DNA of 64,000 bases from Alphaproteobacteria bacterium (GTDB lineage Bacteria > Pseudomonadota > Alphaproteobacteria > Bin65). A model generated the notes under the pieces. It did no database searches. It had not been told where the DNA came from and saw only the letters and a list, made by a program, of their open reading frames with translations. The position numbers were made by a program, and so were the translations under genes. The stretch spans positions 238,848 to 302,847 of the forward strand of contig JAJFFJ010000043.1 of the NCBI GenBank assembly GCA_021776685.1, written 5' to 3'. The stretch's first letter is position 1, and each line of letters starts with the position of its first letter. This document shows, one piece after another, positions 32,499 through 49,728 of the stretch.

Positions 32499-32511
32499 CC
32501 CCAATGCCAGG

Positions 32512-33708: not shown

Positions 33709-33736
33709 CAGTGTTCGTAGCGACACCAGTATCGCC

Positions 33737-34294
33737 ATGTCAGGTGGTCGGACCTTGCGACACGCTGCGACGCTGACCGACGCCGACTTGGTTTTGGCAC
33801 CGATGGACGTTGACGACGTTAGCCAAGACTATGTCGATTGGCTCAACGATCCAGAGGTCGTTGCTCAAACGGAGCAAGCCGGGGCGCGTCATACGATTGA
33901 CTCCGTGCAAGCCTATGTCGATTCCACGTTGCGGGCCCCGGATGCGGCTATGTGGAGGATTCTGCTGTCGGGCACCCATGTCGGTAATGTCCGGCTGTCC
34001 AGCATCAACAGGGTGCACCGGCGGGCCGGTCTTGGCCTGATCATCGGTGCCGGCGACGCACGCAGAAAGGGGCTCGGTCCCCGGGCAATCGAGCTGGCAA
34101 CTGCGCATGCATTCCGTGGACTTGAGCTAAACAAGGTATTCGCTGGCATGTTCGCGTCGAACGAAGCAAGCCGGCGGGCGTTCGAAAAAGCCGGGTATGT
34201 TATCGAAGCGACCTTGCAGCGCCACGCTTGGCACGAGGGCAATTTCGTCGACGTTCATATGATGGCGCGGTTTTGCCCACCGGAGTCGGCGTGA
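33737..34294 (+). CDS. pseH: GNAT acetyltransferase, probable PseH
   Basis: The 185-residue GNAT protein contains DYVDWLNDPEVVAQTEQ, HVGNVRLSSINRVHRRAGLGLIIG, a shortened acetyl-CoA loop RRKGLGPRAIELATAHAF, and NKVFAGMFASNEASRRAFEKAGYVIE. Position between pseC and pseG makes 4-N-acetylation of the altrosamine intermediate the likely reaction. The frame opens at 33647 inside pseC, but the ATG at 33737 gives a normal N terminus. Its stop overlaps the pseG start by one base (TGATG). Confidence 0.82.
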   Translation: MSGGRTLRHAATLTDADLVLAPMDVDDVSQDYVDWLNDPEVVAQTEQAGARHTIDSVQAYVDSTLRAPDAAMWRILLSGTHVGNVRLSSINRVHRRAGLGLIIGAGDARRKGLGPRAIELATAHAFRGLELNKVFAGMFASNEASRRAFEKAGYVIEATLQRHAWHEGNFVDVHMMARFCPPESA

Positions 34295-35277: not shown

Positions 35278-37145
35278 GCGTTCCCCTGTCGGAAATTCCC
35301 GTCGCATATTGCGACAGCCTAGAGGCTCTGCGGCAGGCATGGAAAGAAGGCCTGCCGAGAGACGCCCGAATCCGGACGGCGTCGCCGGCGGTCCACAGTG
35401 CGGGCATCAATACGGTTGAGTCACTCGAAGCGGCGCCTCGGAAAATCGACCTGTCCGAATATTGGGAGGGCGGTTCTGATCTGACCCGCGAGGCGTTTCA
35501 GGCGCTATCCGGCCAAGTTGACACGGCTGAGATCGCGCTTCTTGGTGCGCGGTCGATGCTCTTCGTGCATCGGGCGCTGCAGAAGGCTACGCGCCTTGAT
35601 GCCGACGATTTTACACAGCCGCGCGCGGCGCTGTTGGTCGACGCTCCGTCGACTCAGCTCGACGCGCTGCTCAACGGGCCGTGGCCGGCTTTCTTTGTTG
35701 AGCACGAGCGCTATGCGGAACGCCGCTACGCGGTTCATCTCGCGCCCCAGCCGGAGGTAGTCGCTCCCCCCCTTCGGCTTAAGCTTCGACAGATTGACCT
35801 GCCGCGGCTGTTCTATTTCGCCGGGATACGCCTGAAAGGGAGACTTGCCGCACTCACAGGCCGACGCGCCCTGATTTTCCGCGAGAATGAACTGGTCGAG
35901 GATGTCGTCTGCTCTCTAATGCGCCACGGCTACACGCCGCTGCGCCTCGACAACGTGAATACCGTCGCCGACGCGGAACCAAAGCTGCTCGACCGCGCCG
36001 AAGCCGTTCTGCGGCCCACGATCGACCGCTTTCTTGATCGCTGGTTCGTTCGGGAAGTCCACGGCGCAGCTCGGCGAATGGTGCGGACGGAAATGTCCCG
36101 CTTCCTCGGCACCCACGCCGCGACTCGCGTTGCTTGGCGCGGTCAATTGCGCGGACTGAGAACCCGACGGACCGTTCTGGTCACGAACTTCCCCGGAGGT
36201 CCGGAAGGTGTTTCGCTCGCGGAAACCTGCCGGGAGATGGGCATTTCTTTCATCGTTGCCCAGCACGGCGTCACGCGCGAGATCAGCGATACGCACCGGC
36301 CCATCGAGGTTTACTTCGAGAACGGCACATCCGACCTGTTCCTGACTTTCAACCAGCGGGCTCAGGAACTGACGGAGGCTTCCCCGTTTGCCAGGGGCCA
36401 TGTTCGCACCGTGGGGTTGCCGAGGGCCTATCGACGGCTGTCCCGCCGCCAGGGACAGAACAGGGACTTCCCTATCCTTTACATTTCCACAGCCCTGATG
36501 AAGGGCAACGTCAACCTCGCGACCGGCGGCGCCAGCGACATCGACCGAGTGGTGCGCGAACGTGCGATCGTCAACAACGTGCTGGCACACCTTCCGCAGA
36601 AGGTCCTCTACAAGACTTATCCGTCGCGGGACCGCTACGTCGATACCGATCCCCTGTATGATGACCTGGAGCGGCATGCCAACGTTGGCGTGTTCCGGCA
36701 CAATGTGGACCTCAGGTATTTCATCCGAGAACACCAGGTTCTCATCGCTTCCCGGGCAACCAGTACGATCGGGTGGTGCCTGATGGCGGATCGGCCTCTC
36801 GTATTCATTAATTTTCCCGATGACTCGCCGCTTTCACCGGACGCACGGGCGGCATTCGAGGCAGGCGTGTTTGTCTTCGATTGGACGAGCTCGGACATGC
36901 TGGACGATCTGCGCGCATTTCTGTCGCGGCCGATCGAGATGATTCGCGCAGACTGGCAGGCGAAGGCTCGGAAGCGCGAACAGCTGATCCGGGACTTCAT
37001 AACGCCCTATCGCAGCGGCGCTGGCCGGCGTGGCGCGGCAGCCGTTCTCGAAGCATCAAGCAATGGTGGCGGAAGGGACGGCCCGGCCTGTCACAAACCG
37101 CAGCCCAATCGCGCCTCTTTGGAGGCCAATCAATGGACGAAATGA
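35274..37145 (+). CDS. Unrecognised 623-residue protein, possibly a GT-B surface-glycan transferase
   Basis: I do not recognise this protein. It has no signal peptide or clear membrane segment. The C-terminal 330 residues alternate in a GT-B-like way (VLVTNFPGGPEGVSLAETCREMGISFIVAQHGV, VLYKTYPSRDRYVDTD, VLIASRATSTIGWCLMADRPLVFINFPDD), recalling CDP-glycerol/capsule-type transferases. The N-terminal half is rich in Arg and Leu. It overlaps pseG by 4 bp and is followed 1 bp later by an oxygenase, so it belongs to the glycan operon. A nonulosonate transferase role is a guess. Confidence 0.55.
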   Translation: MSVPLSEIPVAYCDSLEALRQAWKEGLPRDARIRTASPAVHSAGINTVESLEAAPRKIDLSEYWEGGSDLTREAFQALSGQVDTAEIALLGARSMLFVHRALQKATRLDADDFTQPRAALLVDAPSTQLDALLNGPWPAFFVEHERYAERRYAVHLAPQPEVVAPPLRLKLRQIDLPRLFYFAGIRLKGRLAALTGRRALIFRENELVEDVVCSLMRHGYTPLRLDNVNTVADAEPKLLDRAEAVLRPTIDRFLDRWFVREVHGAARRMVRTEMSRFLGTHAATRVAWRGQLRGLRTRRTVLVTNFPGGPEGVSLAETCREMGISFIVAQHGVTREISDTHRPIEVYFENGTSDLFLTFNQRAQELTEASPFARGHVRTVGLPRAYRRLSRRQGQNRDFPILYISTALMKGNVNLATGGASDIDRVVRERAIVNNVLAHLPQKVLYKTYPSRDRYVDTDPLYDDLERHANVGVFRHNVDLRYFIREHQVLIASRATSTIGWCLMADRPLVFINFPDDSPLSPDARAAFEAGVFVFDWTSSDMLDDLRAFLSRPIEMIRADWQAKARKREQLIRDFITPYRSGAGRRGAAAVLEASSNGGGRDGPACHKPQPNRASLEANQWTK

Positions 37146-37146
37146 G

Positions 37147-37956
37147 ATGGTGATCGACCCAAACACTGTCATGGCGACCCTGCGTGCCGACGGACTGGCT
37201 GTTGTTCCCGGCGTTCTGGACATCGCTACCTGCAGCGACGTTGTCGCCCGGCTGGAGGACGTCCTGGTACGGCGCAGTGAGCAGGGAATGTTTTGCGGAA
37301 ATGCCGAGTATCAGGTCCTCTACAACTACTTTATGGAGGACCGGGCGCTCTTGCCGCTCATCGCACCGGATATCGTCGACCAGGTGATGAAGGCGGCAAT
37401 CGATGACGACTATGTCCTGATTTCACCGAGTGCGCGAAACCGGCAAAGAAGGACGGATTTTCAGGCTACAAGCGCCACCTCAGGAATCGGGTGGCACATC
37501 GATTCTCGCCGGGTTGGTGGCATGGATCCGGTTGTTTTGCGTCCGAGCCCGATATTTTTCGCAATTGTGGTCCTTGACCCGCTGGGGCCAAAGAATGGGG
37601 CAACCGAGTACCTGGTGGGGTCTCACCTGCGCTACGAGCGACCGCCTGACCGGGACGCAAAGCATGAGGACCGGCGTGTGCTGGAAGCTGAACCTGGTAC
37701 GATCGTGTTTATGGATTCAGCTTTATGGCATCGCGTTGGACCGCCATCCACGGAGCGACGGTGGACTTTGTTCAACATGTATGGCCCTTGGTTCATGAAG
37801 CCATATTTTGATTTTTCGACCATGTTTTCTTCTGATGAGGCGGATCGCATGCCGCCCAAATATCAGCAACTTCTTCACTACGACTCACGACCGCCGCGGG
37901 ACCACACCGAAAGCACAATCACCTTGCGACGTGTGCGGGAAGCGGAAGGCCTGTGA
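37147..37956 (+). CDS. Phytanoyl-CoA dioxygenase (PhyH)-family Fe(II)/2-oxoglutarate oxygenase
   Basis: The 269-residue protein has the metal triad H117/D119 (GWHIDSR) and H195 (ALWHRVG) plus an Arg in ERRWTLFNMYG for 2-oxoglutarate. The ATG at 37147, right after the previous stop, gives the usual N terminus; the frame is open further upstream within the preceding gene. PhyH enzymes hydroxylate many small molecules. In this locus a hydroxylation or oxidative modification of the glycan or its precursor is likely. The substrate cannot be read. Confidence 0.84.
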   Translation: MVIDPNTVMATLRADGLAVVPGVLDIATCSDVVARLEDVLVRRSEQGMFCGNAEYQVLYNYFMEDRALLPLIAPDIVDQVMKAAIDDDYVLISPSARNRQRRTDFQATSATSGIGWHIDSRRVGGMDPVVLRPSPIFFAIVVLDPLGPKNGATEYLVGSHLRYERPPDRDAKHEDRRVLEAEPGTIVFMDSALWHRVGPPSTERRWTLFNMYGPWFMKPYFDFSTMFSSDEADRMPPKYQQLLHYDSRPPRDHTESTITLRRVREAEGL

Positions 37957-38877: not shown

Positions 38878-39957
38878 ATGCAAAATGAATTGGGGAATAC
38901 CCGTTCGATCGCGAAAAACATGATGCCAGATGGATCCTTTCAAATTGGATCAAGTCGCATCGGTCCAGGTGGCCCGGTGTGGATCATCGCCGAAATCGGC
39001 ATCAATCACGGTGGCGATGAGGCTCGTTGTGCCAAGCTGATTGATGCCGCGGCCGACAGTGGTGCGGATGCGGTTAAATTGCAGACGGTCACACCGGAAG
39101 AGAGCTACCACCCGGACACCGAGAGCTATGGTTTGTTTTTAGATGCCGATCTTTCGGTCGAAGCTTTGCGTCGTTTGTCGGGGCAGGCTGCCGATAGAGG
39201 GATGGTGCTATTCTCAACGCCCGGCGACATCACTGCTCTACGCAAACTCCTCTCGGTCAATGTGCCAGTCATAAAAATTTCATCCGGCCTGCTGACAAAT
39301 CTGCCGTTGATTGCTGCTGCATCCAAGAGCGGATTGCCGCTTATTCTCTCGACAGGCATGGCTCATCTGAAGGAAGTCGAAACGGCTGTGTCGGTTGCCC
39401 GCACGAACGGAGCAACTGATATCGCCGTCCTTCAATGCACGTCCCTCTATCCGGCGCCTACTAACACGCTCAATTTAAGGGCAATGGAAACACTTCGCTC
39501 GGTCCTGGAAACTCCCGTCGGCTATTCTGACCACCATGTCGGTACTTTGGCCTGCGTCGCGGCGGTCGCGGCGGGAGCTTCCGTGATTGAGAAGCATTTC
39601 TCATTGAATCGCAGCGAGATGGGCGCCGATCACGCAATTTCCTCAGAGCCCGCTGAGTTTCGTGAAATGGTCGATTTGGTTCGGGAAGTTGAAGAAATGC
39701 GCGGGTCTCCGGTCAAGGAGCCGACCAGCGAAGAGGCCCGGTTCAGAGACGGGCGACATCGCCTTCTGGTTGCTTCCAGGGACATCGCTGCCGGTGAACG
39801 AATTGACGCCGCCGACATTTATCTGATGCGCATGCCGCACGGCACCTCCGCTTTGCCCGCAGGAGAACTACCGAACATCGTTGGAATGCGTGCGATCGCT
39901 GCAATTCCAAGGCTGACCGGTTTGACCCGCAAAATGCTGGATCACAACGATACCTAG
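38878..39957 (+). CDS. NeuB-family nonulosonate synthase, second and divergent copy
   Basis: The 359-residue protein has IIAEIGINHGGDE, VKLQTVTPEE, KISSGLLTNLPLI, LSTGMAHLKEV, VGYSDHHVG, EKHFSLNRSEMGADHAIS and a C-terminal SAF domain (LVASRDIAAGERID). SSGLLTNLPL and GYSDH resemble NeuB/LegI, whereas PseI has ASFEITDIPL- and GLSDH-type motifs. The GPDHKAS motif is changed to GADHAIS. It may serve the pseudaminic branch or make a third nonulosonate. The start at 38878 has AGAAGG directly against it; ATGs at 38920 and 38923 are alternatives. The surrounding DNA is less GC-rich than the rest. A 154-bp gap precedes it. Confidence 0.82.
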   Translation: MQNELGNTRSIAKNMMPDGSFQIGSSRIGPGGPVWIIAEIGINHGGDEARCAKLIDAAADSGADAVKLQTVTPEESYHPDTESYGLFLDADLSVEALRRLSGQAADRGMVLFSTPGDITALRKLLSVNVPVIKISSGLLTNLPLIAAASKSGLPLILSTGMAHLKEVETAVSVARTNGATDIAVLQCTSLYPAPTNTLNLRAMETLRSVLETPVGYSDHHVGTLACVAAVAAGASVIEKHFSLNRSEMGADHAISSEPAEFREMVDLVREVEEMRGSPVKEPTSEEARFRDGRHRLLVASRDIAAGERIDAADIYLMRMPHGTSALPAGELPNIVGMRAIAAIPRLTGLTRKMLDHNDT

Positions 39958-39960
39958 CGA

Positions 39961-41007
39961 ATGACTCGTATCCTGGTCACCGCAGTTGGTGGCGCGCTCG
40001 CGCCACTCAATATCCGGCTCCTGAAGGGCGGGCTGAGACATCCGGCCTGGGTGCTGGGGGTAGACGAGCGGGAGGATGCGACAGGTCGATATTTTTGCGA
40101 CAGGTTCGAGACAGTTCCGAATGGCGGATCTTCCAGCTACCCGGCGCGAATCAGATCGCTGATCGACACATACGAGATCGATGTTGTTTTGCCCTGGTCC
40201 GATGAGGAAGCGCTTGCTCTGGCTGAAAATCGGGAGATGCTCGAAAGCGGGTCTACTACTTTGGCATGCGCCAATTTCGAGACTCTAAAGACCATGAACG
40301 ACAAAGCTGCCAGCTATGAATTGCTGGCAGCTCACGGAATACGTACGCCCGCCTATGCTGTCGCCAGTAATTTTGAAGAGTTCGATGCCGCAATCGAGCG
40401 CTTGTCTGTTCGCGGCGACGGATTTGCGGTCAAACCATGTGCGAGCCGTGGAAATCGCGGCGTCATCCTCGTTCGTGACGACGTAGAAGGGCAAAGCCGC
40501 TATTCCGGCTCCCGCGAACTACATATGGACCACGCGACTTTCCTGGAAAAGTACCGGACGGAATACGCAGATGAATTTCCCCTGATAGTTTCAGAGCGCC
40601 TTTATCCACCAGCCTATGACATTGATGTTTTAGCCAAGGGAGGTGAGGTGCTTCGCGCAATGCCGCGGGAACGATTAAATCCTGCCGGTGTTCCGTTTAC
40701 GGGTGGGATTTTGAGGCCGACCGATGAACTTCTGGAACTTGCAAAGGATATAACGCGGGTCCTGGATCTAGATTGGCTCTATGACTACGACATCATGCGA
40801 TCGGCTGAGGGCGAAGCGGTCGTGCTGGAACTGAATCCTCGCCCATCGGGAAGCATCGCGGCGGCAATCATGGCAGGTGTGCCATTCTATGATGACCTGA
40901 TCTCGCTTCTGAATGGTGACCCGCTTCCGCCGGTTGAATTGCCGTCAAATGTCACGGTGGTGCCATACACCGATTGCCACACAGTGCCACTCGCAGAACT
41001 GCTTTAG
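39961..41007 (+). CDS. ATP-grasp ligase (first of two in the glycan locus)
   Basis: The 348-residue protein has the carbamoyl-phosphate-synthase-like ATP-grasp layout: N-terminal Rossmann-like domain (ILVTAVGGALAPLNIRLLK), central FAVKPCASRGNRGVILVRD for ATP binding, and C-terminal EAVVLELNPRPSGSIAAAI with the metal-binding Glu and Asn. Such enzymes join a carboxylate to an amine through an acyl-phosphate. It follows the NeuB-like synthase by 3 bp and precedes the SpsF-like gene. It could link an amino acid to an amino sugar, or amidate the nonulosonate carboxyl. The substrate is unknown. Confidence 0.8.
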   Translation: MTRILVTAVGGALAPLNIRLLKGGLRHPAWVLGVDEREDATGRYFCDRFETVPNGGSSSYPARIRSLIDTYEIDVVLPWSDEEALALAENREMLESGSTTLACANFETLKTMNDKAASYELLAAHGIRTPAYAVASNFEEFDAAIERLSVRGDGFAVKPCASRGNRGVILVRDDVEGQSRYSGSRELHMDHATFLEKYRTEYADEFPLIVSERLYPPAYDIDVLAKGGEVLRAMPRERLNPAGVPFTGGILRPTDELLELAKDITRVLDLDWLYDYDIMRSAEGEAVVLELNPRPSGSIAAAIMAGVPFYDDLISLLNGDPLPPVELPSNVTVVPYTDCHTVPLAELL

Positions 41008-41021
41008 AAATTGGTTGATTG

Positions 41022-41732
41022 ATGAACACCGTCGCCATCATCCAGGCGCGCATGACATCGACACGGTTGCCGGGAAAGGTGCTTGCTGATATCTGCGGAA
41101 AGCCTGCATTGCAGCGGCTGATCGAGCGGCTGCAGCCGTCCGCGCTGCTGGATGAAATTACCGTGGCGACCACAGCGCTCGACACGGATAACCCGATTGA
41201 AGACCTATGCCGATCCCTCGGCATCCGCAGTTTCCGCGGTGACGAGATGGATGTACTCGGTCGGTATGTGGCAGCCGCCGCTGCGTTTGGGGCGGACGTG
41301 ATCGTTCGAGTTACAGCTGATTGCCCTATGCATGATGCGAGCGTCGTGGATGACGCTATTCGCCTTTTCCGTCAGGGCGATTTCGATCATGTGTCGAACG
41401 CGGTCGTTCGGACCTATCCAGATGGTCTTGACGTCGAGGTGATGTCGAGAGACGCGCTTGAACGCACCGCTTCCGAGGCAGAGGCCCCCTTTTTGCGTGA
41501 ACATGTGACCACCTATATCCGTGGCTCCCGAAAGGATTTGGCTGTGGGTGACTTTCGCCTTGGCCATCTGACCAATGCCGAAGATCTCAGCCATCTAAGA
41601 TGGACCGTCGACTATCCGGAAGATCTCGAGCGGGTGCGCCGCTATTTCGCCGTGCTGCCCGAAGGCTTCGGCTGGCGGGAGGCGCTCGCCGTCGGTGAGA
41701 TGACGGAACCCGCCCCGGAGCCCAACACGTGA
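41022..41732 (+). CDS. SpsF-like cytidylyltransferase
   Basis: The 236-residue protein begins NTVAIIQARMTSTRLPGKVLADICGKP, the SpsF-family nucleotide-binding loop, and continues with GDEMDVLGRYVAAAAAFGADVIVRVTADCP and TYPDGLDVEV. SpsF proteins are related to CMP-Kdo synthetases and occur beside NeuB-like SpsE in spore-coat and flagellar glycan loci. It probably activates the product of the synthase at 38878. The ATG at 41022 is used because 41019 is a TTG just before it. The stop overlaps the next gene (GTGA). Confidence 0.82.
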   Translation: MNTVAIIQARMTSTRLPGKVLADICGKPALQRLIERLQPSALLDEITVATTALDTDNPIEDLCRSLGIRSFRGDEMDVLGRYVAAAAAFGADVIVRVTADCPMHDASVVDDAIRLFRQGDFDHVSNAVVRTYPDGLDVEVMSRDALERTASEAEAPFLREHVTTYIRGSRKDLAVGDFRLGHLTNAEDLSHLRWTVDYPEDLERVRRYFAVLPEGFGWREALAVGEMTEPAPEPNT

Positions 41733-43018
41733 TCAACCGGTTCGAGCGCTCTGACATCCTGTGGCAGCGGGCCAGCCAGATCATTCCGCTTGCGTCGCAG
41801 ACCTTCTCAAAGTCCCATCAGCAGTGGGTCAGGGGCGCGGCCCCGCTTTTTCTTTCCTCCGGAAGCGGCTGCCGGGTGACCGATCCCGACGGTAATGTTT
41901 ACATCGATTATCTGCAGGGCCTGATGACGAATATCCTCGGCTATGCGGACCCGGACGTCGACAACGCCGTGCGCCGCCAGCTTGTGAGGGGTGTGAGTTT
42001 CTCCCTGCCGACACCGCTTGAGGCAGACCTCGCGGAAAGGCTGGTCGAAGATATTCCCTGCGCCGAGATGATTCGGTTTGGAAAGAACGGCTCCGATGCG
42101 ACAACGGCCTCTATCCGTCTTGCACGGGCGCACACTGGTCGCGACCGCATTGCGGTCTGCGGCTACCATGGCTGGCACGACTGGTATATCGGCACCACGA
42201 CCCGGTCTGCTGGTGTGCCGGAAGCAATCCGCAACCTGTCCGATACCTTCGCCTTCGGCAATATGGAGGAGTTGACGGATCACCTGACCCGGCACAGCGA
42301 CGCTTACGCCGCCGTGATCCTGGAGCCGGCCGGTACGGCTATGCCGGATCCGACCTTTCTTCCCGCACTGCGTGCCCTTTGCGACCGGGAAGGTGTGCTG
42401 CTTATTTTCGATGAAATCGTCACCGGCTTCCGGATGGGGCCGGGCGGTGCGCAGGAACATTACGGTGTCACTCCCGATCTCGCCTGTTTCGGCAAGGCAA
42501 TGGCCAACGGCCTGCCGATCTCCGCCGTGGTTGGCCGCCGCGAGATCATGACGGGGATGGAGGAAATCTTCTTTTCCGGCACCTACGGCGGGGAAGCCCT
42601 GTCTCTGGCTGCTGCGATTGCCACGCTGGATAAGCTGAAGGCAGAGAATGTGGCGCCCCGGCTTTGGACCCTTGGCGAATCGCTGATGGCCCGCAGCAAC
42701 GACGTGATCGGCATAGCAGGGCTTGGCGAGTTTCTTGCGTTCGGCGGCGATGGCTGGTGGCCGCGCCTGAGGATCGAGGATCCGCCGGTGGATCAGCTGT
42801 TGCTCGTCAGCCTGCTACGTCAGGAGTTTATTGCCGCCGGCCTTATTCTGGCCAGCAGCTACAACCTTTGCCTCCCCCACGAAGACGACAAGGTTCAGGA
42901 CGAAACCATCGAGGGCCTGGCCGCTGCGCTGTCAGAGGTGCGGCGCCATCTGGAAAGTCCGGACCCTGCGGCGGCACTCCGCGGAGCGCAGGTGCAACCA
43001 ACCTTTAGCGTGCGATGA
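41729..43018 (+). CDS. Class III aminotransferase, glutamate-1-semialdehyde aminomutase-like
   Basis: The 429-residue PLP enzyme has GKNGSDATTASIRLARAHTGRD, GYHGWHDWYIG, the Asp in LIFDEIVTGFRMG and the PLP lysine K256 in CFGKAMANGLPISA, followed by TYGGEALSLAAA. This is the pattern of glutamate-1-semialdehyde aminomutase and related enzymes found in natural-product and glycan clusters. Here it would move or install an amino group on a nonulosonate or its precursor. It is not likely to be hemL, because it is embedded in the glycan operon with GTGA/ATGA overlaps on both sides. Confidence 0.87.
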   Translation: MINRFERSDILWQRASQIIPLASQTFSKSHQQWVRGAAPLFLSSGSGCRVTDPDGNVYIDYLQGLMTNILGYADPDVDNAVRRQLVRGVSFSLPTPLEADLAERLVEDIPCAEMIRFGKNGSDATTASIRLARAHTGRDRIAVCGYHGWHDWYIGTTTRSAGVPEAIRNLSDTFAFGNMEELTDHLTRHSDAYAAVILEPAGTAMPDPTFLPALRALCDREGVLLIFDEIVTGFRMGPGGAQEHYGVTPDLACFGKAMANGLPISAVVGRREIMTGMEEIFFSGTYGGEALSLAAAIATLDKLKAENVAPRLWTLGESLMARSNDVIGIAGLGEFLAFGGDGWWPRLRIEDPPVDQLLLVSLLRQEFIAAGLILASSYNLCLPHEDDKVQDETIEGLAAALSEVRRHLESPDPAAALRGAQVQPTFSVR

Positions 43019-43485
43019 GGGCTGGGCAGAACACCATGGACGTCACTTCCCTTCGCCCGGCGACGATGGAGGACGCCCGGCGGCTGTTCGATTGGGTCAA
43101 CGACCCTGCGGTATTGGAGACCAAGGCTGATACGAACAGCAAGATCGACTGGAATGTGCATTGCACCTGGCTGTCCGCGCGCCTTACCGACCCGGATACC
43201 TACCTCGCCATCATTGAAGTGTCCGGTGCTGCTGTTGGGCAGGTTCGCCTGCAACCGGGGCCCGGAGGCAGGCATATAGATATCTTCGTCGCTCCCGGCC
43301 ATCGGGGCCGGGGCATCGCCCGTGCGGCCGTTGCCCACGCACTGTCAGAAATCGACGAGCGGCCGGTGATTGCAGTGGTGTTGGATGGCAACCAGGGCTC
43401 ACACGCGCTCTTCCTGTCATTGGGATTCGCCGTGAAGGCCAAGGAAGAGGGCAGGACGATCTATGAGTTCGGGGACGCGCCATGA
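43015..43485 (+). CDS. GNAT-family N-acetyltransferase
   Basis: The 156-residue protein has LRPATMEDARRLFDWVNDPAV, the beta-strand YLAIIEVSGAAVGQVRLQP, the acetyl-CoA loop GHRGRGIARAAVAHALSE, and NQGSHALFLSLGFAVKAKEEG. The WVNDPAV opening recurs in GNATs of nonulosonate loci. It directly follows the class III aminotransferase (4-bp overlap), so acetylation of the amine made there is the natural inference. The third GNAT gene of the locus. Confidence 0.85.
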   Translation: MRAGQNTMDVTSLRPATMEDARRLFDWVNDPAVLETKADTNSKIDWNVHCTWLSARLTDPDTYLAIIEVSGAAVGQVRLQPGPGGRHIDIFVAPGHRGRGIARAAVAHALSEIDERPVIAVVLDGNQGSHALFLSLGFAVKAKEEGRTIYEFGDAP

Positions 43486-44165
43486 GTGACTCAAAGACCA
43501 TTGCCGCCGTCTTCGCCCACCCGGACGATGAGGTCCTTGGCTGCGGCGCCAGCCTCGCCCGTCACGCCGCCGGAGGCGAAACCGTTCGCATCCTAATTCT
43601 TGCGACGGGCCTGGCGTCACGCGGGAAGGCGGAGGCCGCCGAATTAGGGGCCTTGCAGGACCAGGCCCGACGGGCGGCCGGTATCCTGGGCGCTGCCCAC
43701 ATTGCTTTCGGCGAAATGCTGGACAATCAGATGGATACGGTCTCTCTGCTGTCTGTGGTTCAGGTCGTCGAAGAATTTTTCGCCGAGGCGCCGCCAGCGG
43801 TCGTCTACACCCATCACGCTGGCGATCTCAACGTCGATCATCGTGTCACCCACCAGGCCGTGCTGACCGCCCTTCGGCCGCAGCCTGGCACACCCTCCCA
43901 CGAAATTAGGTCCTGCGAGGTCAACAGCGCTACTGAATGGAGCGGCCCGTCGTTCCAGCCTTTCGTTCCGACAATATTTGCGGACATCACCGGTACGTTG
44001 GAGAAAAAGCTGGAGGCGTTGCGATGCTACGCTGGCGAACTTCGAGACTGGCCGCATCCCCGGTCTGAAGTGGGCGTTGAGACCCTGGCCCGCTGGCGCG
44101 GCGCTCAATGCGGTCATGAGGCGGCAGAAGCGTTCGCGCTTGTGAGACGGGTCAGTGGCGCATGA
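43482..44165 (+). CDS. PIG-L family deacetylase
   Basis: The 227-residue protein opens with the metal site AHPDDEVLGCGASLARHA (AHPDDE, residues 12-17) and has THHAGDLNVDHRVTHQAV (about 107-124) with the further metal-binding His, as in LmbE/PIG-L zinc deacetylases. These remove acetyl groups from N-acetylglucosaminyl compounds. In this position it could free an amino group for the GNAT or ATP-grasp enzyme encoded nearby. It overlaps both neighbours by 4 bp. Confidence 0.88.
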   Translation: MSDSKTIAAVFAHPDDEVLGCGASLARHAAGGETVRILILATGLASRGKAEAAELGALQDQARRAAGILGAAHIAFGEMLDNQMDTVSLLSVVQVVEEFFAEAPPAVVYTHHAGDLNVDHRVTHQAVLTALRPQPGTPSHEIRSCEVNSATEWSGPSFQPFVPTIFADITGTLEKKLEALRCYAGELRDWPHPRSEVGVETLARWRGAQCGHEAAEAFALVRRVSGA

Positions 44166-46006
44166 CCGGTATAGCCTTCGTATCCGATCCGGAGCGCGCC
44201 TGCGCGGCCCTCCAACAGATTCTTCCTTCTGAAGATGATCGACCGGTCCACACCGAAGCACTTGACTCTGGCGCGCGGATCGCGGGATGGGGTCGATTGA
44301 ACGGGCAGGGCGGTCCGGAGCCCCGCTGCTTCAGGGATCACTTGTGGATCGCTGTCGACGGCGAAATCTACGGAGAGGTGGATGCGGACCGCGGGCCGCT
44401 CGCCGCTCCCGCTGACCTGATCGCCGACGCTTTGCTCGCGGGCCGACCAGAGGAAATCTACCAACTGAATGGCACCTTTGCGGCCCTTGCTTGGGACGCA
44501 CGAGAGAAACGTCTGACGCTGATTGCCGACCGCCTCAGCACCCGGCTGCTCTATTTCTGGACCGATGGGTACAGGATCGCCGCCGCCAGCCGATTGGAAG
44601 CGTTGGTACAGGACGCACGCATCCCGCGGTCCCTCGACCCGGACGCGGTGCTCCAATCCTTGGTCCACCAGCGGCCGTTTGCCGGGCGAACATTCTATAC
44701 CGGCGTCGAAGGGCTTTCCTGTGGCGAGATGGTAACAATTGCCGGCGGCCGGGTTGAGCGGCGGCAGGTCTGGCGGCCAGCCTGGACCGGCGAGCTCACC
44801 GACCGGCGGCAGATCGCCGGAGAACTGGCCGATCGTACTCGCGCCGCGGTCCGCCGCCGCTTACCTGCTGCGGGTGGACGTCCGGGGATACTGCTCTCCG
44901 GCGGCCTGGATTCACGCATGGTGCTGGCTGCCGCGGGCGACGACGCATCGCGTTTTCATTGCGCCACGGTCTCGGCTTGGGAGAATGCGGAAACTGATAC
45001 GGCCCGGTTGGTGGCCGACGCGGCCGGCGCGCCCTTCACTCTCTTCGAGAGCAAGCCTGGTGATTTTCATACACTGCTGCCGGAAGCGACTCGACTGGTT
45101 GACGGCATGTTGCCGGCGCCCCTGTCGATGTCGGGAAACTATCCTGAGATTGGGGCCTGCATGGACGCGGCGTTTTCCGGCCACTTCCTGGATGTCATGT
45201 TCCGCGGTACCTATCAGCCGAAGGCCTATGTCAATCTGATCCGGGGTAAAGCTGCCCTGCCGAAGCACCGCCCTATCGCCGACGCCCGGCCGGAGACGAT
45301 TTCCCGCGAACATCACATTCAGTCAGAAATCCGGGCCCATACCGAGATCCTGTCAGATGCCGGCCGGGCGCAGATGGAAGAGGCGGCGGTGGAAGGTGTG
45401 CGCGGGGCCTTGGCGCTGGCCGACTTCGACGATCGGTACGATGCTTTCGACATCTTTTGCCTGCATGCCCAGGGCCGGCATCATTCCAACACCGACTTCC
45501 TGAGCCTTGTGCCATGGGCCGAATACCGAATTCCGGCATTGGACAGGGATTTGTTCGACCTCTACCTGCAGATTCCGGCACATCTGCGGGTTGGTCAGGA
45601 CATAGCATTGCGGGCGATGGAGATGCTATCGCCAGGCCTGTTTGCCCTGCCGGATGCGGGCACCGGCAAGCGTGGCACCACCGGCCCTCGGACACGGATA
45701 TTCTGGGCGCTCTGGTCCGCAGCGAAGCGACGGGCGGGCCTCACCCGCCGGCGGCAGGGGCCTCAACCTTGGTTAACTGAAGGTTCGTGGGTAAACTGGC
45801 CGGTTTGGTTTCGTCAGGAGCCAAATATCCGGCGCTTGGCGGAAGCTCTGCCGGACTCGCCGCGCCTCATGGATCTCGGATTATTCGACCGAGCTGGCCT
45901 CCGAAAGGCCATCGAGGGATATATGGCCGGCAACGCGAGCATCACCAAATTGCTGCGCCAGCTTCTGACGCTGGACTCTTGGCTGGCGCAATACCCGACC
46001 AAATGA
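44162..46006 (+). CDS. Asparagine synthase-like protein without the N-terminal cysteine
   Basis: The 614-residue protein has an N-terminal Ntn-type domain (WGRLNGQGGPEPRCF, DGEIYGE, YQLNGTFAALAWD) and a C-terminal ATP-pyrophosphatase domain with the PP-loop ILLSGGLDSRMVLAAA (about 243-258). Glutamine-dependent enzymes start Met-Cys-Gly; here the start is MTGIAF, so the cysteine that releases ammonia from glutamine is missing and Thr takes its place. It may use free ammonia or another amine, as beta-lactam-synthetase-like relatives do. A role in amide formation on a uronic or nonulosonic acid is likely. Confidence 0.83.
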   Translation: MTGIAFVSDPERACAALQQILPSEDDRPVHTEALDSGARIAGWGRLNGQGGPEPRCFRDHLWIAVDGEIYGEVDADRGPLAAPADLIADALLAGRPEEIYQLNGTFAALAWDAREKRLTLIADRLSTRLLYFWTDGYRIAAASRLEALVQDARIPRSLDPDAVLQSLVHQRPFAGRTFYTGVEGLSCGEMVTIAGGRVERRQVWRPAWTGELTDRRQIAGELADRTRAAVRRRLPAAGGRPGILLSGGLDSRMVLAAAGDDASRFHCATVSAWENAETDTARLVADAAGAPFTLFESKPGDFHTLLPEATRLVDGMLPAPLSMSGNYPEIGACMDAAFSGHFLDVMFRGTYQPKAYVNLIRGKAALPKHRPIADARPETISREHHIQSEIRAHTEILSDAGRAQMEEAAVEGVRGALALADFDDRYDAFDIFCLHAQGRHHSNTDFLSLVPWAEYRIPALDRDLFDLYLQIPAHLRVGQDIALRAMEMLSPGLFALPDAGTGKRGTTGPRTRIFWALWSAAKRRAGLTRRRQGPQPWLTEGSWVNWPVWFRQEPNIRRLAEALPDSPRLMDLGLFDRAGLRKAIEGYMAGNASITKLLRQLLTLDSWLAQYPTK

Positions 46007-46278
46007 ATCTCGAATTTACCCCAGATTCCTATGAAGCCGTGACCCCGGACCCGCTTGGCGGCGGGTACGAACCGATTGGCTTCGAGTCAGGCGCCCCGGC
46101 GGTGCGGAATCTGTTCGAACGCACTTATCTTGATTACCGGTGTGCGGAGACCCTCACTTGCGCGGCATGGCTCTTTTCGAGAGTCGTGTTCGATCGGCGC
46201 AGCCACCGCAATGCATTCCGTTTGCACGTTGCCAAATACCGGGAAAACAAGGAATTGCACTGGGATGGTAGCCGGTGA
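46003..46278 (+). CDS. Small 91-residue protein of unknown function
   Basis: I do not recognise this protein (MNLEFTPDSYEAVTPDPLGGGYEP). It is rich in Arg, Tyr and acidic residues, has two Cys (YRCAETLTCAAW) and no membrane segment or signal peptide. It looks real because it starts in an ATGA overlap with the AsnB-like gene and ends in a GTGA overlap with the deacetylase-like gene. Its size suits an accessory or carrier protein, but it shows no phosphopantetheine site. Confidence 0.6.
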   Translation: MNLEFTPDSYEAVTPDPLGGGYEPIGFESGAPAVRNLFERTYLDYRCAETLTCAAWLFSRVVFDRRSHRNAFRLHVAKYRENKELHWDGSR

Positions 46279-47012
46279 ACATGGCATTTACCCCGAACAA
46301 CTATATCGACCTGGTGCAGACGATCATCGGGCGCGGTTATGCAATCGTCGACTTCGCGACGGCGGATCCAAAACGGAAGCACCTCCTTTTGCGACACGAC
46401 ATTGATATGTCGATTCAAGCGGCAGTGGAGATGGCCGAGGCTGAAGCCGCTGCAGGCCTGAAAAGCACCTATTTCGTCTTGATGCGCAGCGAATTCTATA
46501 ATCCTTGGGCGCCGGAAAGCTGGAGCGGCTTACGGAGGATTTCAGGTCTTGGTCATGATGTTGGTTTGCATCTCGACGCGGCACTTTATCGCGATGTCGA
46601 CGAAGCCCTGGAAGTTGCAGCACTACGCGAATGCTCACAGCTCGAAGGACTACTCGAACAGCCGGTCACGTCGATCAGTTTCCACAGACCGGCAAAACGT
46701 CTGTTAGGCCGGGAAGGGCGATTAGCCGGGCGACAGCACGCCTACCAACCTCGTTTTTTCTCTGACATGGGTTATTGCTCAGACAGTCGCGGTGGCTGGC
46801 ATCAGGGCCCGCCACTTGAGCATCCGGCATTGAACGATGGGCGCGCGCTGCAGTTATTGACCCATCCTATATGGTGGACCGGCGGGGACGCCCCGCCTGC
46901 GAATCGATTGTCTCGGTTCGTGACAACACGACAATCGGTTCTCGATCGAGAACTCGCCAAACACTGCAGCATCTACGTTGCGAACGACTCCGCTGGAGCA
47001 ACCGATGAGTGA
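46275..47012 (+). CDS. Polysaccharide deacetylase-like protein
   Basis: The 245-residue protein (GTG overlapping the previous stop; an ATG at 46281 is possible) has the NodB-type motif LLLRHDIDMSIQAA (D42, D44), STYFVLMRSEFYN and HDVGLHLDAALY, and a late SISFHRPAKRLLGREG corresponding to the RxP-type motif. This pattern is common in polysaccharide deacetylase-like proteins of O-antigen loci, where the true reaction is often untested. It overlaps the WbpB-like gene by 8 bp. Confidence 0.75.
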   Translation: MNMAFTPNNYIDLVQTIIGRGYAIVDFATADPKRKHLLLRHDIDMSIQAAVEMAEAEAAAGLKSTYFVLMRSEFYNPWAPESWSGLRRISGLGHDVGLHLDAALYRDVDEALEVAALRECSQLEGLLEQPVTSISFHRPAKRLLGREGRLAGRQHAYQPRFFSDMGYCSDSRGGWHQGPPLEHPALNDGRALQLLTHPIWWTGGDAPPANRLSRFVTTRQSVLDRELAKHCSIYVANDSAGATDE

Positions 47013-48000
47013 TCCTGTGCCCACTATCGCTGCGGTCGGACTCGGCCACTGGGGCAAGAACATCGTTCGCAATCTGGACGCCATTGGCGCCCTACATACG
47101 ATTTTCGATAACCAGGTCGAGACGCGTGCCGCCATCGCGCAGCTATATCCGAATGCACGGGTTGCGGAGAGTTACGACGCGCTCCTGGCCGATAAGGATA
47201 TCGACGCCGTGATGATCGCGACACCTGCGGTAACCCATGGGGCATTGGCTGATGCTGCGCTTGATGCCGGCAAGCACGTCTTTGTGGAGAAGCCAATTTG
47301 CTTGAATCTTGAGGAAGCTGAACGGCTGAATGCGAAGGCCGCAGCCAACGACCTTACCCTCATGGTTGGGCATCTCCTGCACTACCACCCCGCGTTTCAG
47401 GCTCTTCTTTCGCTGATCCAGACAGGTCGCCTCGGTAGGCTCCGCTATGTCTACTCGAACCGCGCTAGTCTTGGCAGAATCCGGCGGGAGGAGAACGCGC
47501 TGTGGTCGTTCGCGCCACACGATATATCAATGATTCTGGCTATCGTTGGACGAATGCCGGAGAACGTCGTGGCCAATGGCGGAACATATTTGTCCAGCGG
47601 CGTTGCCGATACGACCCTAAGTCACATCGAGTTCAGCGAGGGAGTGCAGGCACACATTTTCGTATCCTGGCTCCATCCTTACAAGGATCAACGCCTGGTG
47701 GTTATTGGTGAGGATGCCATGTGCGTCTTCAATGATGTCGTTCCAGGAGAAGACAAACTTGTCCTTTACTCACACAAAGCGGGCTGGGACGGCGCGGTTT
47801 CGTATGTCGCAAAAGCAGAGCCAGAGCCGATCCCTTATGGAGATGGTGAACCCTTGGAGGCAGAATGCCGGGCATTCATAGGCGCGGTTACGGGGCGTGC
47901 TGTTCCGCCTTCAGATGCTGCTGAAGGCATCAGGGTGTTGCGTGTTCTGGATGCGTGCCAGCGCTCGCTCAGTTCCGGCGCGCCGGTCCCATTGACATGA
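47005..48000 (+). CDS. Gfo/Idh/MocA oxidoreductase, WbpB/WlbA-like
   Basis: The 331-residue protein has TIAAVGLGHWGKNIVRNLDAIG (NAD fold), VEKPICLNLEEAERL with the family Lys, and VGHLLHYHPAFQALLSLI. It is followed by an acetyltransferase and a WbpE-like aminotransferase, together matching the set that turns UDP-GlcNAcA into the 2,3-diacetamido uronic acid: C3 oxidation, amination, acetylation. GGAG 7 bases before 47005 fixes the start; the frame opens at a TTG at 46978. The 6-dehydrogenase for UDP-GlcNAcA is not in the window, so a non-uronic 3-acetamido sugar is also possible. Confidence 0.84.
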   Translation: MSDPVPTIAAVGLGHWGKNIVRNLDAIGALHTIFDNQVETRAAIAQLYPNARVAESYDALLADKDIDAVMIATPAVTHGALADAALDAGKHVFVEKPICLNLEEAERLNAKAAANDLTLMVGHLLHYHPAFQALLSLIQTGRLGRLRYVYSNRASLGRIRREENALWSFAPHDISMILAIVGRMPENVVANGGTYLSSGVADTTLSHIEFSEGVQAHIFVSWLHPYKDQRLVVIGEDAMCVFNDVVPGEDKLVLYSHKAGWDGAVSYVAKAEPEPIPYGDGEPLEAECRAFIGAVTGRAVPPSDAAEGIRVLRVLDACQRSLSSGAPVPLT

Positions 48001-48563
48001 ACATGACTGAATTTTTCGTCCACGAAACGGCCATTGTCGACGACGGGGTCGAAATTGGCCCGGGCTCAAAAATCTGGCACTTTAGCCACATTCTTTCGGG
48101 AACCCGGCTTGGGACGAACTGTACGGTTGGCCAGAACGCGATGATAGGTCCGCGTGTCGTCGTCGGCGACAATTGTAAGATCCAAAACAATGTGTCGATT
48201 TATGAAGCGGTGTTTCTGGAGGAAGAAGTATTCTGTGGGCCTTCCTGTGTTTTCACCAACGTGTTGACGCCGCGGGCGTTTGTTGAACGGAAGCATGAAT
48301 TCGCGCCAACCCGTGTGAAGCGGGGCGCGACTATTGGCGCCAACGCAACCATCGTTTGCGGCGTAACGATCGGGCGATATGCCATGGTCGGCGCTGGCTC
48401 TGTCGTAACCAAGGACATAAAGGACCATCAACTCGTGGTCGGAAACCCTTCCCGCCCCAGCGGGTGGGTTAGCCGCACCGGCGAGCGCCTCGATGAGGAC
48501 CTCGTTTGTCCAAGAACTGGAGAAGTCTATCGTGAAACTGATGCCGGCCTTGCGGTCATCTGA
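47997..48563 (+). CDS. Hexapeptide-repeat N-acetyltransferase, WbpD/WlbB-like
   Basis: The 188-residue protein is a left-handed beta-helix acyltransferase: HETAIVDDGVEIGPGSKIWHFSHI, NCTVGQNAMIGPRVVVG, IQNNVSIYEAVFLEEEVFCGPSCVFTNV and GATIGANATIVCGVTIGRYAMVGAGSVVTKDI. These motifs (IWHF, NVSIYE, GPSCVFTNV) are those of the UDP-sugar 3-N-acetyltransferases WbpD/WlbB. The ATG overlaps the oxidoreductase stop by 4 bp. The last 20 residues (GERLDEDLVCPRTGEVY) match the conserved tail of the family. Confidence 0.88.
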   Translation: MNMTEFFVHETAIVDDGVEIGPGSKIWHFSHILSGTRLGTNCTVGQNAMIGPRVVVGDNCKIQNNVSIYEAVFLEEEVFCGPSCVFTNVLTPRAFVERKHEFAPTRVKRGATIGANATIVCGVTIGRYAMVGAGSVVTKDIKDHQLVVGNPSRPSGWVSRTGERLDEDLVCPRTGEVYRETDAGLAVI

Positions 48564-48567
48564 AGAT

Positions 48568-49728
48568 ATGGGGAGTTTCTCACTCCCAGACGCTGAAGTG
48601 CCGGAGTTAGAATTCGCAGGCATTAAGGCACAGTATGCAGCGCTCAAGAGCTCGATTGCGCCTCGCCTCGCAAAGGTATTTGAACATGGCCGCTTCATCA
48701 TGGGGCCAGAGATCGAGGAACTCGAAGCGGCACTCACCGAGTTTGCCGGTGTTGAACACGCCGTAGGCCTGTCGAGCGGCACCGACGCGTTAATAGCGCC
48801 GATGATGGCGATGGGCGTCGGACCGGGCGACGCGATCTTCATGCCTGCTTTCACCTTCACCGCCACCGCGGAAGTGCCGATTTTGCTGGGAGCTTCCCCG
48901 GTCTTTGTCGATGTCGAGCCACGCACCTTCAATATTGATCCCGCCGACTTGGCAGCGAAGATCGATGCGGTGAAGAAAGCCGGTGTCCTTCGACCGAAAG
49001 CGATCGTACCGGTGGATCTTTTTGGATTGCCTGCAAACTATGCAGCGATAGGGGAGATCGGGAACCGCGAAGGTATTGATGTCTTAGCGGACGCCGCCCA
49101 GAGCTTCGGTGCTTCACAAAACGACCAGCGTGTTGGTTCGCTCGCGAGAGTGACCGCCACCAGTTTTTTTCCGGCCAAACCGCTTGGCTGCTACGGCGAT
49201 GGCGGCGCTATCTTCACAGACGACGGGGATTTGGCTGATCAAATCAAATCGGTGCGCGTCCATGGTCAGGGCAAAGAGAAGTACGCGGTCGATCGAATCG
49301 GGTTGAATGCCCGGCTCGACACGCTTCAGGCAGCTATTCTCATCGCCAAACTCCCCAGGCTGGCATCGGAAATTGATGCGCGTAACGCGTTGGCAGATCT
49401 CTACGATAGCCATTTGTCGGACATTTGCGTGACGCCACTGCGGGATCCGAACGCACAATGCGCCTTTGCGCAGTATTGCATTCTGGTTGAGGGCCGGGAC
49501 GAGGTTCAGCAGCGACTGCAAGAAGCCGGCGTGCCGACGGCAATCTACTATCCTAGGCCGATGCACTTCCAAGCGCCCTATGAACAATATGGGGACGGTC
49601 CAGGGTCGCTCTCTGTCAGCGAAGAGTTGGCAGGAAAGATTCTCGCATTACCAATGCACGGCTATATGCAAGAGCACGTCGCCGATCGCATCGGCAAGGC
49701 TGTCCGCGCGGCAATTGAAAGCGTATGA
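48568..49728 (+). CDS. DegT-family sugar 3-aminotransferase, WbpE/WlbC-like
   Basis: The 386-residue PLP enzyme closely resembles Pseudomonas WbpE: GRFIMGPEIEELE, SGTDALIAPMMAMGVGPGD, ADAAQSFGAS and SFFPAKPLGCYGDGGAIF with the PLP lysine at K204. It aminates the 3-keto sugar made by the WbpB-like enzyme, using glutamate in the known case. I chose the ATG at 48568, five bases after the previous stop; in-frame ATGs at 48493 and 48541 would overlap the acetyltransferase gene. The next gene overlaps by 4 bp. Confidence 0.9.
   Translation: MGSFSLPDAEVPELEFAGIKAQYAALKSSIAPRLAKVFEHGRFIMGPEIEELEAALTEFAGVEHAVGLSSGTDALIAPMMAMGVGPGDAIFMPAFTFTATAEVPILLGASPVFVDVEPRTFNIDPADLAAKIDAVKKAGVLRPKAIVPVDLFGLPANYAAIGEIGNREGIDVLADAAQSFGASQNDQRVGSLARVTATSFFPAKPLGCYGDGGAIFTDDGDLADQIKSVRVHGQGKEKYAVDRIGLNARLDTLQAAILIAKLPRLASEIDARNALADLYDSHLSDICVTPLRDPNAQCAFAQYCILVEGRDEVQQRLQEAGVPTAIYYPRPMHFQAPYEQYGDGPGSLSVSEELAGKILALPMHGYMQEHVADRIGKAVRAAIESV

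Follow-up and report, generated by a model that had tools for sequence, protein, structure and literature searches.

Many bacteria coat their flagella, capsules, and lipopolysaccharide with nonulosonic acids, whose N-acyl groups shape the surface. Here we investigated which sugar could be made by a run of eight genes on a 64,000-nt stretch of an alphaproteobacterial contig (the window; Table 1), and whether the eight form one unit. A preliminary description had read the run as one system in which a nonulosonic acid is made by a divergent synthase, its amino group is moved and freed, and an acyl or amino-acid group is joined to it.

Table 1. Features of the window discussed in the text
Feature	Position	Strand	Basis and remarks
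Aldo/keto reductase, candidate redox partner of AT3	17085..17996	-	PF00248 111.2 bits
PseB, PseC, PseH-like, PseG-like	31473..35277	+	profile scores
GTy, GT-B-fold protein	35274..37145	+	likely glycosyltransferase of module
PhyH-type dioxygenase	37030..37956	+	PF05721
NeuB2, nonulosonate synthase	38878..39957	+	PF03102 240.7 bits, SAF; tree; residue Gly137
ATP-grasp ligase, PylC-like N-terminal domain	39961..41007	+	PF21360; predicted to acylate sugar amine
SpsF-type CMP-sugar synthetase	41022..41732 (ORF from 41019; ATG at 41022)	+	PF02348 99.4 bits
AT3, SpsF-linked class III PLP aminotransferase	41729..43018	+	PF00202; tree; Lys motif FGKAMANG
GNAT acetyltransferase, PseH-like	43015..43485	+	PseH score 21.4, under cut-off 93.1
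PIG-L de-N-acetylase	43482..44165	+	PF02585 84.3 bits; predicted to free N-acetylated sugar amine
AsnB-like protein without Cys2	44162..46006	+	PF00733 66.6 bits; border of module
Small protein, 91 aa	46003..46278	+	no family match; 53% relative in L026
Polysaccharide-deacetylase-like protein (presumed)	46275..47012	+	RHDID, SFHRP by eye; start of downstream group
WbpB-, WbpD-, WbpE-like genes (presumed)	46978..49728	+	Gfo/Idh 46978, acyltransferase 47955, DegT 48493

A six-gene module in a larger pse locus

All eight open reading frames were confirmed on the plus strand between 38878 and 46278, consecutive and with mostly overlapping ends as first described: of the seven inner junctions, the first two leave 3 and 11 bp between the genes, and the remaining five are 4-bp overlaps. 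Pfam and NCBIfam profiles confirmed the family assignment of seven of the eight proteins and gave no match for the small one. NeuB2 may alternatively start at a later in-frame ATG at residue 15, and no sigma-70 match was found at 38600–39000. The run continues past 46278, with the small-protein gene overlapping its downstream neighbor by another 4 bp; this neighbor, which we take to be polysaccharide-deacetylase-like, gave no Pfam or NCBIfam match and has relatives in loci L023, L026, L031, and L143, and is followed by genes that, partly from similarity, we presume to be WbpB/WbpD/WbpE-like. The run is embedded in a larger pse locus, with PseB (31473; 517.2 bits, cut-off 407.75) and PseC (32479; 455.7, cut-off 423.5) passing their equivalog cut-offs about 7 kb upstream of the module, accompanied by PseH-like (33704; 47.4 of 93.1) and PseG-like (34228; 92.8 of 153.55) proteins that score under theirs. 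A Leg-type gene set lies at 16000–29608 in the same window, with its own synthase (19951) and CMP-transferase (24582).

To describe recurrence, we divided 105 AT3 loci into the 18 that share the AT3 clade of the window and the remaining 87, and counted genes on the same stretch. The ATP-grasp relative accompanied AT3 in 14/18 clade loci versus 2/87 others, the PIG-L relative in 12/18 versus 7/87, and the GNAT relative in 12/18 versus 16/87; the seeds of the profiles came from the window or from its clade, which favors detection in close relatives. Among control loci, taken from 40 of the 51 genomes that were PseB-positive but had no close AT3, ATP-grasp relatives were present in 3/40 and PIG-L in 0/40. 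The 87 include the loci with a transketolase gene that were omitted from the trees (every fourth such locus is represented in the AT3 tree and every sixth in the NeuB tree). L127 and L129, copies of L022 and L023, were dropped from the trees, linkage counts, and residue reading but kept in the oxidoreductase test. The core genes, whose scattering in relatives had been named as evidence against a common system, therefore stay together, and synthase, ATP-grasp, SpsF, AT3, GNAT, and PIG-L constitute a module also found repeatedly in other alphaproteobacteria. At least 27 of the 120 ATP-grasp matches listed, counted by eye, agree in the length of the longest contig with one of the 120 AT3 matches listed; L026, a genome of the same family, has AT3 and PIG-L without the ATP-grasp gene.

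The other two genes of the run are only occasional neighbors of this module, so that the eight genes are not one unit, and of the proposed single system only the stretch from synthase to PIG-L stood. The AsnB-like protein has close relatives in just three other AT3 loci of 105 (L031, L143, and L145; in the first two beside a deacetylase-like gene) and the small protein has a relative in one, and both were rejected as core components. Glutamine-dependent AsnB enzymes use an N-terminal Cys nucleophile. The window protein starts MTGI and its relatives MIGL (L145), VIGL (L143), and MIGI (L031), none with Cys2, whereas the AsnB proteins of L130 and L186 do have MCG. The idea of two amide-forming enzymes in one pathway is accordingly not upheld. 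L026 holds a further Asn_synthase protein, and since such a protein lies directly 3' of PIG-L or AT3 in L026 and L031, the AsnB-like and small proteins could nonetheless work on the same glycan.

A separate synthase lineage

NeuB2 scored 288.4 on the NeuB_NnaB profile (cut-off 399.65) and 238.6 on the PseI profile (cut-off 340.25), and SpsF scored 28.8 on the PseF profile (cut-off 205.7), bearing out the description of both as divergent. NeuB1, the synthase of the Leg-type set, was also under the PseI cut-off (239.9), and the best match to PseF in the window is the 24582 protein of that set, likewise below the cut-off (137.1). In a NeuB tree, which leaves out matches shorter than 220 residues (L132), NeuB2 falls in a 12-row clade (SH-aLRT 99) whose remaining rows all come from loci of the window's AT3 clade, a lineage separate from ordinary PseI. 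All 10 other AT3-clade loci with an ATP-grasp match and a synthase in the tree have their synthase in this clade; L135 has a synthase of the NeuB2 lineage but no ATP-grasp match.

The C2-specificity position of such synthases is reported to be Gly in the Neu/Leg type and Phe in the Pse type (PMC7371886). By our own mapping of this position to the fifth residue of KxxSx, NeuB2 carries Gly137 (KISSG) and lacks the Phe of Pse synthases. The 12-row clade has Gly in nine rows and Ser in three, and the NeuB fragment of L132, outside the tree, also reads KISSG, while L026 and L133 have Phe; residues were read by pattern, with L213 and L222 counted among the AT3 loci, and a small number of fallback matches are clear errors (e.g. 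L037).

These data bear on two other accounts of the synthase. The first is that the locus is an ordinary pseudaminic acid operon, in which NeuB2, SpsF, and GNAT are simply PseI, PseF, and PseH and the other genes add minor decorations. The frame PseB-PseC-CTP-PseG-GNAT-NeuB in several control pse operons and the PseB and PseC scores agree with this account, and PseB, PseC, and the operon frame are what the window shares with the PseBCHGIF pathway. The window differs from that pathway in the sub-cut-off synthase and CMP-transferase and in the additional ATP-grasp, AT3, and PIG-L genes; furthermore, the NeuB2 lineage is separate with Gly for Phe, and L026 and L133, which are without ATP-grasp, retain a synthase inside the ordinary group. 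We therefore regard an ordinary operon as unlikely. The second account assigns NeuB2 a manno-configured acceptor of the Leg/Neu-like type, drawn from the Leg-type genes (16–29 kb) or from an unknown sugar, with the pse genes serving another glycan. Since Gly is the state of Neu/Leg synthases, the acceptor could indeed be manno- rather than altro-configured, and NeuB2 scores higher on NeuB_NnaB than on PseI; against this, three clade members have Ser, the Leg-type set already includes a synthase and a CMP-transferase, PseB and PseG occur in 7/18 and 9/18 clade relatives, a LegB-like best match was found among these relatives only in L026 (26%), and PseB and PseC would be left without any synthase. 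Two NeuB genes are present in the genome, both of them within the window, and because the other one sits in the Leg-type set, the PseB/PseC product is more likely to be used by NeuB2, leaving a manno-type acceptor with a similarly low probability.

The SpsF-linked aminotransferase

AT3 scored 362.9 on the PRK06209 profile (cut-off 486) and 240.2 on the HemL profile TIGR00713 (cut-off 527.3). The AT3 tree, built by a quick method without bootstrap, places the window in a 19-row clade (SH-aLRT 99) inside a 48-row branch (94) that holds Aeromonas proteins, and AT3 and SpsF form a single polypeptide in 86 of 120 homologues among the matches listed (counted by eye); AT3 thus shares both clade and CMP-transferase linkage with the Aeromonas-type enzymes. 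An oxidoreductase of the AKR or Gfo/Idh type is found no more than 3 kb away from AT3 in 17/27 class loci, compared with 6/23 control pse loci in which the distance was taken from the CMP-transferase (p 0.012, descriptive only because the clades hold near-copies, L045/L151 and L139/L140); the 23 controls are those with a CMP-transferase, leaving out L213 and L222 with their weak AT3. This proximity fits oxidation followed by transamination rather than an aminomutase, and the original suggestion that the amino group is moved is not supported: AT3 is far under the HemL cut-off and accompanies SpsF and, in many sister loci, an oxidoreductase.

Within the window's own clade, an AKR on the same stretch was not enriched (6/18 versus 15/87, p 0.19). 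The window AKR is closest (40%) to the AT3-adjacent AKR of L133; it has a LegB-like gene next to it and is separated from AT3 by about 24 kb. The extra-amine step is consequently weakest in this window. PhyH was present in 7/18 clade loci versus 2/87 others, and an HMGL-like gene, none of which was found in the window, in 8/18 versus 0/87; PhyH as the oxidant for AT3 was set aside, since six of the eight HMGL-like loci also have a PhyH match.

Class III aminotransferases accept many small keto acids and aldehydes as substrates, and AT3 might instead make an amino acid or amine building block for the ATP-grasp enzyme. This range and the unenriched AKR are consistent with such a role, while the fusion of AT3 to the CMP-sugar synthetase and the presence of AT3 in pse operons without an ATP-grasp match (L034 from Nostoc, L038 from Algicola, and Aeromonas, PMC7874193) argue for the sugar amine and make the building-block role quite improbable.

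Proposed product and related systems

The ATP-grasp protein exceeds the PF21360 cut-off (33.3 of 27), scores under the cut-offs of the PRK12767 profiles, and has a predicted fold that matches 2pn1 and PylC among the matches listed; it thus combines the PylC-like N-terminal domain and ATP-grasp fold of PylC-like/PRK12767 ligases. We tentatively predict that the synthase-to-PIG-L module makes a CMP-nonulosonic acid whose C5 amine is likely acylated with a non-acetyl group and which likely bears an extra amine; as originally suggested, the best reading is still that the nonulosonic acid is modified and carries an amide substituent. In the reaction order that we propose, PseB and PseC would form a UDP-4-amino-4,6-dideoxy sugar that a GNAT would acetylate, and PseG would release UDP. 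PIG-L would then take off the GlcNAc-derived N-acetyl group at C2 (C5 of the product), and the freed amine would be re-acylated by the ATP-grasp enzyme with another acid, which in relatives HMGL-like and PhyH enzymes may build. NeuB2, with Gly (Ser in some relatives) for Phe in its pocket, would join the altered hexose to PEP, and SpsF would make the CMP-sugar. An oxidoreductase could provide a sugar carbonyl for transamination by AT3, with C8 as the most likely position if EpaA/EpaB are a guide, and GTy may transfer the product.

A more specific possibility, which we consider rather doubtful, is a 5,7,8-triamino nonulosonic acid class defined by PIG-L stripping the C5 acetyl, ATP-grasp adding a purpose-built acid, a dedicated synthase lineage, and the SpsF-AT3 hallmark of a third amine. 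The O-antigen of Flexibacter (Tenacibaculum) maritimum contains an 8-amino-3,5,7,8,9-pentadeoxynonulosonic acid whose third amine and 3-hydroxybutyryl amide are of the kind predicted here; the cited passages name no genes (PMC3210612). If the triamino reading is true, this sugar would gain genes; the module would supply candidates where none were found named in the literature, and our search of the open-licence PMC literature found no paper on T. maritimum genes for the 8-amino sugar. The combination of SpsF-AT3, ATP-grasp, and NeuB2 would, if our prediction holds, also be a genetic signature from which unusual nonulosonate derivatives could be predicted. A non-acetyl acyl group on N5 is likewise known from the 5-N-lactoyl Pse of the Psychrobacter marincola capsule, for which the cited passages give the structure only, without a third amine (PMC7281560).

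The earlier statement that no described pathway has this set needs correction in one respect: class III aminotransferases of pse operons have been described, together with an aldo/keto reductase, in the Aeromonas flagellin glycosylation island group I, although the cited passages give no product (PMC7874193). A. cavernicola P0142, presumably an aminotransferase of this kind, is 48% identical to AT3; a term search of the text of that paper found no mention of ATP-grasp. We found no paper assigning a product to the present gene set in the open-licence PMC literature. EpaA (a CTP_transf_3-AKR fusion) and EpaB (an SDR) together epimerize Pse at C8 (PMC12053666); they resemble the window in coupling an SpsF-type CMP-transferase to redox chemistry on the sugar, and differ in using AKR and SDR without an aminotransferase. 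The window SpsF stands alone and is followed by AT3 rather than fused to an AKR with an adjacent SDR, whereas L217 has the EpaA-type architecture in a pse operon without AT3. Shewanella SfmABCDE also combines NeuB-type with ATP-grasp proteins in the synthesis of a flagellin glycan, but has a TPP enzyme and an SDR for AT3, and its added moiety is reported as nitrogen-free (PMC3765264). A 274-Da sugar of Shewanella oneidensis has two nitrogens, which, should that species carry AT3, may count against an extra amine.

The flagellin glycan of Aeromonas hydrophila AH-1, a strain presumed to have AT3 from the description of its island group, has a mass of 403 Da and an oxonium ion at m/z 404 (PMC4691044), an even value that, under the nitrogen rule, points to an odd nitrogen count. 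By mass arithmetic, 403 Da is matched by 8-amino-Pse bearing either two hydroxybutyryl groups or a glyceroyl plus two acetyls, and equally by Pse5Ac7Ac with serine. We do not take this fit as evidence, because the authors' top formula, C19H32O9, contains no nitrogen (PMC4691044) and neither the 8-amino-Pse nor the Pse-serine formulae account for the difference of 31 that separates the reported ions 404 and 373.

The aminotransferase family is common, with at least 7996 relatives at E 1e-30 (7996 of 7999 candidates scored), so that one AT3 enzyme assay would inform many genomes. In phage records, no match was found for the CTP-AKR fusion, and the AT3 matches (67 records) were all below 60% identity. 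In the phylum of L081, a Bacteroidetes record, 48 of 395 genomes hold an AT3 relative at E 1e-100.

Gene run and its surroundings

The preliminary description placed eight genes at 38878..46278; all eight open reading frames lie there, and family matches confirmed seven of the family names. The operon-like packing also held, with gaps of 3 and 11 bp at the first two junctions and 4-bp overlaps at the next five; a sixth overlap connects the interval to a ninth gene. An unbroken continuation 3' of the run encodes a deacetylase-like protein, then WbpB-, WbpD- and WbpE-like proteins. A second ATP-grasp protein, PRK12767-like with scores below cut-offs, follows 3' of the WbpE-like gene and belongs to the same broad family as the first.

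The genome (4.54 Mb, 158 contigs) has two NeuB genes, both inside the window: NeuB1 at ~20 kb, in a Leg-type set (LegB-like, 411.4 of 475; LegC-like, 363.9 of 420), and NeuB2, which opens the run. On the 5' side of the run, PseB and PseC scored above curated cut-offs, and PseH-like and PseG-like proteins below. The other synthase being part of the Leg-type set, the PseB/PseC product would most naturally go to NeuB2. The case for SpsF, the CMP-sugar synthetase, is less clear than that for NeuB2: with the PseF profile, the Leg-type set protein at 24582 scored 137.1 bits versus 28.8 for SpsF, both below the cut-off of 205.7. The Leg-type set stands beside a pse-type module, and the organism therefore probably makes two nonulosonic acids.

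Coordinates of features in the window and in compared loci
Feature	Position	Remarks
Leg-type nonulosonate set	16000-29608	LegB-like, LegC-like, NeuB1, PseF/NeuA-like; NeuC- and PtmE-like by eye
GTy, GT-B-fold protein	35274-37145	
NeuB2 synthase	38878-39957	
ATP-grasp	39961-41007	
SpsF	41022-41732	
AT3, class III aminotransferase	41729-43018	
GNAT	43015-43485	
PIG-L	43482-44165	
AsnB-like	44162-46006	
Second ATP-grasp	49725-50789	
CTP_transf_3-AKR fusion, then SDR	L217:9441-16647	541-aa ORF; alphaproteobacterial pse operon
Related class III aminotransferase	L257:6956-8296	Natronosalvus

The AT3 clade, its linked genes and NeuB2

Relatives of AT3 number in the thousands, and among the 120 listed, 86 (counted by eye) carry a CMP-transferase domain in the same polypeptide, a strong sign from sequence that the two would act on one sugar. 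We compared the best 80 of at least 584 relatives in named genomes, and 27 additional loci (two being copies) from 385 genomes of the class, with 40 control PseB loci drawn from 51 genomes with PseB and without a close AT3. Arrangement (a), PseB-PseC-[AKR or Gfo/Idh]-SpsF-AT3-PseG-NeuB, occurred in alphaproteobacteria, Nostoc, Algicola and others; arrangement (b), the window's type, reads NeuB-ATP-grasp-SpsF-AT3-GNAT-PIG-L with some variation in order; arrangement (c) is a separate module that combines transketolase halves with an SDR and has no PseB/PseC nearby.

In the AT3 tree (80 rows including four outgroup rows; quick method, no bootstrap), the window protein fell in a 19-row clade (SH-aLRT 99), whose sister of 29 rows (92) comes mostly from pse-type loci and includes two Aeromonas proteins. 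Linkage was counted at 105 AT3 loci, copies removed, for genes anywhere on the stretch at hand, up to ~10 kb each side. ATP-grasp was found with 14 of the 18 other clade members versus 2 of the 87 remaining loci (Fisher p 3.7e-12; p-values here are descriptive, given the relatedness of the loci and the use of the window or its clade as profile seed). The corresponding counts were 12/18 versus 7/87 for PIG-L, 12/18 versus 16/87 for GNAT, 7/18 versus 0/87 for GTy, and, for the candidate acid-building enzymes, 8/18 versus 0/87 (HMGL-like) and 7/18 versus 2/87 (PhyH). For AKR they were 6/18 versus 15/87 (p 0.19), for Gfo/Idh 5/18 versus 15/87 (p 0.33), for PseB 7/18 versus 16/87 and for PseG 9/18 versus 21/87. 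Control pse loci held ATP-grasp relatives in 3/40 cases and PIG-L relatives in 0/40.

The NeuB tree (85 proteins) places NeuB2 in a 12-row clade (99), distinct from the control pse operon synthases and those of arrangement (a); the remaining rows of this 12-row clade all come from loci of the AT3/ATP-grasp clade. Every other AT3-clade locus with an ATP-grasp match and a synthase in the tree (10/10) falls there. Four AT3-clade loci have no ATP-grasp match: the synthases of L026 and L133 lie within the ordinary group, L135 has two synthases, one inside and one outside the NeuB2 lineage, and L021, a contig of 4 kb, has none. One synthase position is Gly in Neu/Leg and Phe in Pse enzymes (PMC7371886, in excerpt); we mapped it to the fifth residue of KxxSx, residue 133 of the 1xuu chain, the excerpt giving 132. 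Phe occupies it in 13/24 control synthases and, among synthases of other AT3 loci (arrangement (c) left out), in 22/33. Both sets include non-Pse enzymes that are second synthases of their loci, which account for only part of the remainder. The L026 and L133 synthases have Phe, and all 12 NeuB2-clade rows have Gly (9) or Ser (3); window NeuB2 has Gly, as does NeuB1.

Proposed acyl exchange and extra amine

PIG-L enzymes, such as MshB and BshB, deacetylate GlcNAc-type amines; the window protein scored 47.1 bits with the BshB1 model, below the cut-off of 182.5. PIG-L and an amide ligase occur together with acid-making enzymes and a synthase whose C2-pocket residue is smaller; the simplest explanation would be that another acyl group takes the place of the N-acetyl at C2 (C5 of the product) ahead of the NeuB2 step. 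Pse bearing a non-acetyl acyl group on N5, lactoyl, is known (PMC7281560, in excerpt).

The putative AT3 role is modelled on EpaA/EpaB, a CMP-transferase-AKR fusion and an SDR that give 8-epi-Pse (PMC12053666, in excerpt). The same architecture in L217, in a pse operon without AT3, suggests 8-epipseudaminic acid outside Acinetobacter prophages. In arrangement (a), AT3 occupies the position of the EpaA/EpaB-type SDR, as if a transaminase had been swapped in for the reductase. Flexibacter maritimus has a known 8-amino nonulosonic acid bearing amide-linked acetyl and 3-hydroxybutyryl groups (PMC3210612, in excerpt). AKR or Gfo/Idh lay within 3 kb of AT3 in 17/27 class loci; in the controls, where the same distance was taken from the CMP-transferase, the count was 6/23 (p 0.012). 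This extra-amine step is the weakest part of the model, since the window AKR lies ~24 kb from AT3.

AT3 with AKR has been described in Aeromonas pse operons, no product being given in the excerpt of PMC7874193, which places A. cavernicola in the group with these operons; an A. cavernicola protein is 48% identical to window AT3. An SpsF-AKR fusion was noted in a Vibrio pse cluster (PMC7371886, in excerpt). Our searches of open-licence PMC literature found no description of the ATP-grasp/NeuB2 arrangement.

AsnB-like proteins and a transketolase-type module

The AsnB-like protein, counted in the preliminary description as part of the system, turns up at too few AT3 loci to count as core. It forms a subfamily with its three close relatives in L031, L143 and L145, all lacking the Cys2 nucleophile, and is not an ordinary glutamine amidotransferase; L130 and L186 encode AsnB proteins beginning with MCG. 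Its gene follows PIG-L in L026, as in the window, and at L031 and L143 it is located ahead of the gene for the deacetylase-like protein; in these two loci and the window it adjoins or lies near a polysaccharide-deacetylase-like protein without a Pfam match.

A related class III aminotransferase is encoded on a haloarchaeal plasmid (L257), with no annotated NeuB within 7 kb in a possibly incomplete gene table. The arrangement (c) module was present in 45 of the best 80 of at least 584 AT3 loci (L046-L100, e.g. L049, L074, L088), mostly in Bacteroidota, Ignavibacteria and Chloroflexota, and in L256, a Methylomagnum plasmid. Within 3 kb of AT3, PseB, PseC or PseG occurred in 0/45 of these loci, SDR in 41/45, CMP-transferase in 41/45 and NeuB in 38/45. 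The order is GT (PF04464-like)-SpsF-transketolase N half-transketolase C half-class III aminotransferase-SDR-NeuB, often with a fatty acid hydroxylase. The gene content suggests an undescribed route to an ulosonic acid that relies on a TPP enzyme; the nearest described set found is Shewanella SfmABC.
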